Assembly: GCA_016866935.1 (NCBI GenBank)
Contig: VGKS01000004.1
Location: 1-39,098, forward strand
Direction of reading: 5' to 3'
DNA: 39,098 nucleotides
DNA from: Candidatus Pacearchaeota archaeon
GTDB taxonomy: Archaea; Nanobdellota; Nanobdellia; Pacearchaeales; GW2011-AR1
Part shown: positions 14,110 through 33,812 of the stretch, piece by piece
How positions within the stretch are numbered: position 1 is the first letter of the stretch
Layout of the letters: the number at the start of each line of letters is the position of its first letter
Notes under the pieces: generated by a model
Seen by the model: only the letters and a program-made list of their open reading frames with translations
The model's database searches: none
Told to the model about the DNA's origin: nothing
Position numbers and translations under genes: made by a program

Positions 14110-14252
14110 TATTTCAAATCCTTTATATGAGCCCACCAGTCCACATAAATTGATATTTGTGGTAACTTCAAAACAAGTATATTTTGAAGTGATGTGAACC
14201 TGAAACCTGATTAAAATCCAAATGGATTTTTAAGGGATTTTCAAATCCCTTA

Positions 14253-14375
14253 TGAGCCCACCAGGATTTGAACCTGGGACCCCTGCTGTTCTTAGCTGTG
14301 TAGCTTAAACACTAAACTTCTAGCGAAGTCTATTCGTATAAGAGCAGTGCTCTAACCGGGCTGAGCTATGGGCTC
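14253..14375 (-). tRNA. tRNA-Ile(UAU) with 48-nt intron (intron 14289-14336)
   Basis: Cloverleaf GAGCCCA/TGGGCTC, GCTC/GAGC, CTGCT/AGCAG, CCAGG-TTCAAAT-CCTGG; bulge-helix-bulge CTTA(TAC)/TAAG(AAC); mature loop CTTATAC. Confidence 0.85.
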
Positions 14376-16892: not shown

Positions 16893-16963
16893 GCGGATGT
16901 TGTGTAATGGTAGCATACCGGCTTGTGGCGCCGTTGGAGTGGGTCCGATTCCCACCTTCCGCT
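16893..16963 (+). tRNA. tRNA-His(GUG)
   Basis: GCGGATG/CTTCCGC acceptor (one U-U mismatch), anticodon loop TTGTGGC, GTGGG-TCCGATT-CCCAC arm; genomically encoded G at -1 (16892). Confidence 0.85.
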
Positions 16964-16966
16964 TTT

Positions 16967-17023
16967 CGGTTCTCCGCAGCGAGTGTCCCAGCAAGTTGAG
17001 GACGGTCGAGCAAGAGAGAATCG
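16967..17023 (+). ncRNA. structured RNA element, copy 1 (between tRNA-His and hisS)
   Basis: Outer stem CGGTTCTC/GAGAATCG, inner stem GTCC/GGAC, conserved blocks AGCGAGT and GGTCGAGCAAGAGAG shared with copy 2 at 33700-33752. Confidence 0.55.
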
Positions 17024-17048
17024 AAATAATTAGAATAAGGAATTTAAC

Positions 17049-18269
17049 ATGATATACCAACCAGAAAACGTCAAAGGATTTACTGATTACCTTCCACCAG
17101 AATCCCAAAAGAGAGCAGCTGTGAAGGCAGTTATTGAAAAAACATTCCAAGAATATGGGTTTATTCCTATAGAAACTCCTACGATAGAGTATGAAGAACT
17201 TATGAAATCGAACCCTATGGAGGAAGAAGATTCAACAGTTTCAGAGCGTTTCAGGCTAAAAGACAGAGGGGGAAGAAATTTAGGACTAAGATACGAATTT
17301 ACATTCCAGTTAGCAAGAATATTCAAACAAAATCCAAATATAAAACTACCATTCAGAAGATATCAAATAGGCTCAGTATTCAGAGATGAGCCAGCCGGTC
17401 CAAATCGTTTCAGGGAGTTTACACAATGTGATGCAGATATAATTGGAGATTCCTCAATCCAAGCAGATGCAGAAGGTCTGGCCATATTTGCAGATGTTTT
17501 TAACAAGCTTAAAATCAAATATGAAATAATTATTAACAATCGTAAACTTCTAAACTCCATCCTTGACAGCGTTCAAATAGAAAATAAAAATCAAGTCATA
17601 CGCGAAATAGATAAATTAGACAAGCTAGGAGAGGATGAAATCAAAACAAATTTGAGAAAATATGCAAATACCAATCAAATACTTTCATTATTCAAGCTTT
17701 TAGAAAAGGACATTAACTTCTTTAAAGAAAATATGTTCGACGGGGCAGAGGAAATAGTTCAACTAAAAGAAATAACGACATTCTATGGATTTAGTGTAAA
17801 ATTCAATCCTTCTTTAGTGCGAGGATTTTCTTATTATACTGGAAATGTATGGGAAGTAAAAGCAGAGGGTATGAAAGAAACTATTGCAGCTGGAGGCCGT
17901 TATGATAAAAGCGTAGGCCGATTTATTAATAAAGAAATACCAGTGGTAGGCATATCCTTCGGCCTAGATAGAATTGCAAAAAAAGCAGATATAGCCATAC
18001 CATTAACAAAAGCAATTGTAATCTCAATAGAAAAGGAAAAAGAATCCATTAAACTATCTCAAAACTTAAGAAAGAACAATATCAGTTGCATAGTCAACTC
18101 AGGAGGAGTAGGTAAAGCATTAGAATATGCAAACTCTTACAATATCCAATATGCAATATTTGTAGGAAAAGATGAAGTGAAACAAAAGAAGTTCAAATTA
18201 AAAAATCTCAAATCTGGAGAAGAATCTCTGTTGAATGAAAAGTCAGTTATAGCTAGATTAAAGGATTAG
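17049..18269 (+). CDS. hisS: histidyl-tRNA synthetase
   Basis: Class II aaRS motifs: KGFTDYLPPES, FRYEF-like LGLRYEFTFQLAR, FREFTQCDADIIG, AAGGRYD, GISFGLDRI. Confidence 0.93.
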   Translation: MIYQPENVKGFTDYLPPESQKRAAVKAVIEKTFQEYGFIPIETPTIEYEELMKSNPMEEEDSTVSERFRLKDRGGRNLGLRYEFTFQLARIFKQNPNIKLPFRRYQIGSVFRDEPAGPNRFREFTQCDADIIGDSSIQADAEGLAIFADVFNKLKIKYEIIINNRKLLNSILDSVQIENKNQVIREIDKLDKLGEDEIKTNLRKYANTNQILSLFKLLEKDINFFKENMFDGAEEIVQLKEITTFYGFSVKFNPSLVRGFSYYTGNVWEVKAEGMKETIAAGGRYDKSVGRFINKEIPVVGISFGLDRIAKKADIAIPLTKAIVISIEKEKESIKLSQNLRKNNISCIVNSGGVGKALEYANSYNIQYAIFVGKDEVKQKKFKLKNLKSGEESLLNEKSVIARLKD

Positions 18270-33660: not shown

Positions 33661-33812
33661 GCCTCCGTAGCTCAGTGGTAGAGTACGTCCTTGGTACTTG
33701 CTACTCCATAGCGAGTCTTCGAGCCCGTGAGAAGGGTCGAGCAAGAGAGTAGAAAGCAGTAAAGTGGCAAACAATGAGGACGGGGTCCCGAGTTCAATCC
33801 TCGGCGGAGGCT
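33661..33812 (+). tRNA. tRNA-Thr(GGU) with 80-nt intron (intron 33697-33776)
   Basis: GCCTCCG/CGGAGGC, GCTC/GAGT, CGTCC/GGACG, CCGAG-TTCAATC-CTCGG; relaxed bulge-helix-bulge; mature loop TTGGTAA. Confidence 0.88.
33700..33752 (+). ncRNA. structured RNA element, copy 2 (inside tRNA-Thr intron)
   Basis: TACTC/GAGTA outer stem, CTTC/GAAG inner stem, AGCGAGT and GGTCGAGCAAGAGAG blocks identical to copy 1. Confidence 0.55.

Follow-up and report, generated by a model that had tools for sequence, protein, structure and literature searches.

What is the short hairpin that occurs twice in this window (the whole stretch of 39,098 nucleotides that was analysed), once in the spacer between tRNA-His and hisS and once within the intron of tRNA-Thr? 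The preliminary description took it for a structured RNA class, and when the sequence was re-read both copies were indeed present at these two places with the blocks described for them. Our results favor, with good confidence, another kind of answer: a palindromic repeat, 38-72 nt long and probably selfish, that is dispersed in Pacearchaeota-type archaea, is non-autonomous, resembles MITEs and Rickettsia palindromic elements (RPE), and targets tRNA borders. We read it as a mobile repeat because it is dispersed, patchy and variable in copy number, lies on either strand, sits flush at tRNA borders or duplicated tRNA ends, and has in-frame coding copies; that it is a regulatory RNA class is unlikely. 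The features concerned are the following.

16893..16963, + strand: tRNA-His, host of copy 1 (Rfam tRNA model)
16964..17026, + strand: copy 1 of the palindromic element (fold and covariance-model match)
17049..18269, + strand: hisS, histidyl-tRNA synthetase (named from sequence)
33661..33812, + strand: tRNA-Thr(GGT), host of copy 2 (Rfam tRNA model)
33699..33754, + strand: copy 2, in the tRNA-Thr intron

The first base of copy 1 directly follows N73 of tRNA-His, and 22 bp separate its right end from the start of hisS, a gene order common to the genome of the window (G000) and to the same-genus genome G002. In both genomes (locus L053 in G002) the tRNA-His encodes G-1 (16892 in the window) and has U73 in place of the usual C73. 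Copy 1 consists of an outer stem (TTTCGGTTCTC/GAGAATCGAAA), two conserved internal-loop strands (CCGCAGCGAG and CGAGCAAGAG) and a variable inner stem (GTCC/GGAC), and it folds far better than its shuffles (z -4.4). Copy 2 begins about 2 nt or less from A37 (33696), which marks the 5' splice position, in a tRNA-Thr that was missed by ARAGORN and found by the Rfam model; exon 1 of this gene spans 33661-33696 and the intron, about 80 nt long, probably ends near 33776. On its own, copy 2 has a competing hairpin as its minimum-energy fold (z -1.5), so that its structure is supported by comparison and not by energy.

In the 686-kb genome there are exactly two occurrences of the pattern AGCGAGT..GGTCGAGCAAGAGAG, and a search with the pattern reversed gives none. 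A first covariance model, built from the two window copies and searched over 55 relatives, gave strong matches only in the own genome and in G002, which holds four strong further copies plus others; one of the G002 loci matches the public contig SICU01000021 (Candidatus Pacearchaeota isolate Baikal-deep-G140). Scanning 85,000 species genomes for the pattern revealed more copies in Pacearchaeota and Nanoarchaeota MAGs, and the wider covariance model R2 found the element in 15 of 181 same-family genomes (Pacearchaeota/Nanoarchaeota MAGs), patchily and with 1-22 copies each, the highest number being that of G076, a MAG that is 62% complete. R2 gave 99 matches, 92 of them distinct, diverged and spread over many genera; 38 nt is the shortest form, and the consensus reads roughly TCTTTGTTCNCCGCAGCGAG, inner stem-loop, CGCAGCAAGAGNGAATCAAAGA. 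Among 378 genomes sampled across the class, only G302 and G311 carry the element beyond its own family, and at least the two copies of G311 sit in tRNA introns. The two occurrences of the pattern against none backwards, the further copies and the strong covariation together place this family far beyond chance.

Some candidate occurrences were set aside. L069, which lies in a coding region, has the look of a chance match, viral contigs scanned with the pattern returned only coding-like or chance-like sequences (L074-L076, L226, L227), and phage and plasmid collections gave no match to the element. The contig JAQTRG010000035.1 (L068), deposited as a Paceibacterota bacterium, is best read as a mis-binned archaeal contig, because it shares 76% identity with G172 over 1.3 kb and carries the same tRNA-Lys. 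At the tRNA-Lys locus itself, L068 is 76-93% identical to G172, a Pacearchaeota-type genome.

The stem-internal loop-stem architecture with compensatory change, proposed from two sequences, held in the larger family. When the 92 distinct copies were aligned to the model, compensatory changes were seen in 16 of 18 base pairs, 88.6% of cells were paired (69.1% when shuffled), and the covariation score was 0.514, as compared with 0.193 (sd 0.008) for shuffled and at most 0.09 for slid alignments; this alignment was fitted to the structure and thus leans towards it. An eight-sequence MAFFT alignment, which was not so fitted, still had both sides changed in 12 of 18 pairs. Outer and inner stems both covary, and the internal-loop strands stay constant; judged from their sequence, these conserved unpaired strands may form tandem G.A pairs by way of a GA / G(C)A motif. 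Rfam comparison at the gathering threshold, over the window and related loci, returned only tRNA and one 5S rRNA, and a permissive search around copy 1 added nothing to these, in agreement with the earlier impression that the hairpin fits no known consensus. C/D and H/ACA guides were considered and rejected: no box motifs were visible by eye, and the conserved strands are not variable guides, because they are identical in every copy. None of the outcomes named in advance as contrary to the preliminary description (lack of covarying homologues, an Rfam match, a duplication free of structure) was observed. What stands of it is a covarying family that matches no Rfam entry; an RNA class in the usual sense does not, given copies that are dispersed, patchy and, in part, coding in frame.

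The genomic context was classified for 86 of the 99 aligned matches. In 27 of these, at most 4 nt separate the left end from a tRNA 3' end, and in 8 the same holds, in antisense, for a tRNA 5' end; five copies are located in tRNA introns, three of them (copy 2, L121 and L145) beginning right after A37 or no more than about 2 nt beyond it. Another 11 adjoin a duplicated tRNA 3' end of 12-17 nt, six lie in ORFs, and 29 are found elsewhere, several of them still near tRNA genes or fragments. Thus 35 copies are flush with a tRNA by their left end and 0 by their right end, where random placement would give about 0.1% per copy. Relative to neighbouring genes, copies occur on either strand. Some copies (L142, L006, L095) have a duplicated tRNA 3' end beside them, and single flush copies show no such duplication. 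Two copies in G156 (L077, L115) lie in antisense directly upstream of ATG start codons, and a copy in G193 (L141) adjoins a tRNA 3' fragment in antisense, the end of which is at the T-arm. A left-hand DNA hairpin as the general target was rejected: no such hairpin lies next to the coding copies.

These coding copies are six in-frame insertions: in MetRS at two sites (two genomes), in S4, in S11 (two genomes) and in L31e, the last three proteins being named from their sequences. All six are in sense orientation, in one reading frame (..SPQREAPQQSEEARSKSES..) and stop-free. In the own genome (G000, contig 15), MetRS bears a 20-aa insert, VHSPQREAPQQSEEAHSKSK, between EKKPWE and the next helix; nine aligned MetRS orthologs, that of the same-genus G002 among them, have no insert anywhere. 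G076 MetRS lacks the G000 insert and has its own, of 21 aa, at a different site. The S4 insertion is at the C-terminus, those of S11 (in both genomes) and L31e are at the N-terminus, and the S11, S4 and L31e inserts have frame and peptide in common.

How far do these data fit other explanations? A simple segmental duplication or gene conversion under no structural constraint might be imagined from one window with two near-identical blocks, but it is refuted by the compensatory changes in both stems across 92 distinct copies and by the divergence of copies in many genera, so that we give it virtually no credence. A functional structured RNA tied to tRNA genes, be it a small RNA or a cis-element that is co-transcribed and serves processing, stability or termination, would be in keeping with the strong structural covariation, with the 27 copies lying in sense directly 3' of a tRNA, and with an internal loop that is conserved in sequence and has tandem G.A potential. 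We nevertheless consider it improbable: about 90% of relatives lack the element, orthologous tRNAs in the same genus do without it, the eight copies on the tRNA 5' side are antisense and the six in protein genes are read in frame, and there is no T run to suggest a terminator.

Other modes of movement must also be weighed. In IS200/IS605 family elements, hairpin ends and a site-specific, directional placement are typical, and the hairpin and directional placement seen here resemble that family; hairpins of the REP/RAYT-like type, moved by an HUH Y1 transposase, would therefore come to mind. However, this is a very improbable account, as the HUH transposase domain Y1_Tnp was not detected in 10 of the 15 carriers (incomplete MAGs), among them the own genome, G002 and the 22-copy G076, and several non-carrier genomes have many Y1_Tnp. 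An RNA- or cDNA-mediated retroelement, in which the hairpin, as RNA, would be attached to the 3' ends of tRNA or cDNA and then converted to DNA, has a little more in its favor and is still improbable. It would account for a left end that is always joined to a tRNA 3' end, to the end of exon 1 (A37) or to the complement of a tRNA 5' end, for the tRNA 3'-end fragments from near A58 that are duplicated beside elements, and for the antisense tRNA 3' fragment next to L141, but the reverse transcriptase domain RVT_1 was not detected in 9 of the 15 carriers, again incomplete MAGs and again including G000, G002 and G076. Neither an autonomous relative of the element nor a mobilising enzyme emerged from the Y1_Tnp and RVT_1 searches of these 15 incomplete carrier MAGs.

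Comparison of orthologous loci indicates turnover of the mobile repeat. At the tRNA-His/hisS locus, G000 has the main element and G002 has a second one, which we call type A, with a duplicated tRNA-His 3' end at its flank; the tRNA-Thr intron of G002 is empty of the element. At one tRNA-Lys locus, L068 and G172 hold different versions, both flush to the tRNA; the tRNA-Lys gene itself has a short anticodon-loop intron in G172 (L101) and none in L068. In L104 (1501-1660), three right-half remnants lie downstream of a full copy beside the tRNA, a pattern that points to insertion having occurred repeatedly on the side next to the tRNA. Right halves that lack left halves, downstream of a tRNA-proximal full copy, were seen in L104, L107, L109, L138 and L151; they look as if newer copies had replaced the tRNA-proximal half of older ones. 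The window contains a type A member as well.

14128..14139, - strand: 12-nt repeat of the tRNA-Ile 3' end (original at 14253-14264), at the flank of the type A element
14138..14190, + strand: type A element member, antisense to and downstream of tRNA-Ile
14253..14375, - strand: tRNA-Ile (anticodon UAU, inferred) with intron, host of the type A element (Rfam tRNA model)

Type A is a second structured family, with a P1 stem formed together with tRNA T-stem sequence and two further covarying hairpins. It was observed downstream of many tRNA genes in both orientations (L049, L066, L067, L044, L059, L040, L019, L012, L045), with direct repeats of the tRNA 3' end (about A58 to N73) and inverted T-arm copies on its flanks, and often as exact tandem duplicates with a CRISPR-like look. 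The type A model (R3) found it in 29 of 165 family genomes, and at least 12 of the 15 main-element carriers have it (Fisher p ~3e-8, assuming that all 15 were scanned). One could speculate that tRNA borders are the landing and growth point of an integration system: short folded units would be added there, the tRNA 3' end, from about A58 to N73, would be copied as a repeat, and CRISPR-like arrays would grow in which the unit closest to the tRNA is the newest. The hairpin and the three-way-junction type A would then be two substrates of the same machinery; we hold this wider idea to be unlikely.

As for the palindromic repeat itself, we propose that it would move as a folded single strand and in trans, and that the left end of this strand would be attached at the border of a tRNA gene, on one DNA strand or the other. 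The hairpin would then be kept by selection or by the recombination machinery because the element moves in folded form. In coding genes, presumably only those insertions survive that keep the frame and fall in segments, at the surface or the termini, that tolerate them.

Palindromic repetitive elements with coding potential were reportedly described in Methanocaldococcus jannaschii by Suyama et al. in 2005. Palindromic repeats of this methanogen, some of them inside protein genes that they do not disrupt, are cited in PMC2229807 and PMC2996958; judged by these brief descriptions, they are likewise archaeal and likewise occur in protein genes, and their lineage differs. RPE are dispersed between genes and also lie, in a constant frame, inside unrelated conserved protein genes; they occur in RNA genes (tmRNA, M1 RNA) too, and have no known transposase (PMC2229807, PMC10969869). 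The present element shares with RPE the multi-copy dispersed palindrome and the insertion of the same peptide in the same frame into unrelated conserved protein genes. In contrast, RPE are bacterial and 105-146 bp long, whereas this element is archaeal, 38-72 nt long and strongly targeted to tRNA borders by its left end. Prokaryotic MITEs and REP are likewise short, non-coding, multi-copy inverted repeats that are presumably moved in trans, but our element lacks terminal repeats of known IS and the Y1 transposase is undetected in most of its carriers. In casposon/CRISPR-type integration too, the tRNA 3' end is the target and becomes duplicated, and new units likewise appear tRNA-proximal (L104, and L101 as compared with L068); unlike there, the units here are structured repeats and not captured foreign sequence. 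The element thus appears RPE-like in behaviour and new in sequence, size, target and lineage, a distinction from RPE and from the M. jannaschii elements that is drawn from published descriptions. A literature search of partial coverage returned no report of such an element in Pacearchaeota or at archaeal tRNA borders.

Models R1 and R2 allow these hairpins to be annotated, and caution is warranted, since such hairpins can be mistaken for regulatory RNAs. A few intracellular bacteria and a single methanogen are known to have palindromes that invade protein genes in frame, and here they are found in tiny, symbiotic-type DPANN archaea, together with a placement at tRNA borders that has single-nucleotide precision and involves the same end each time. 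Two matters thereby become testable: the agent that mobilises RPE-like elements, and the way in which essential genes (MetRS, S4, S11, L31e) put up with, or make use of, inserted selfish peptides.
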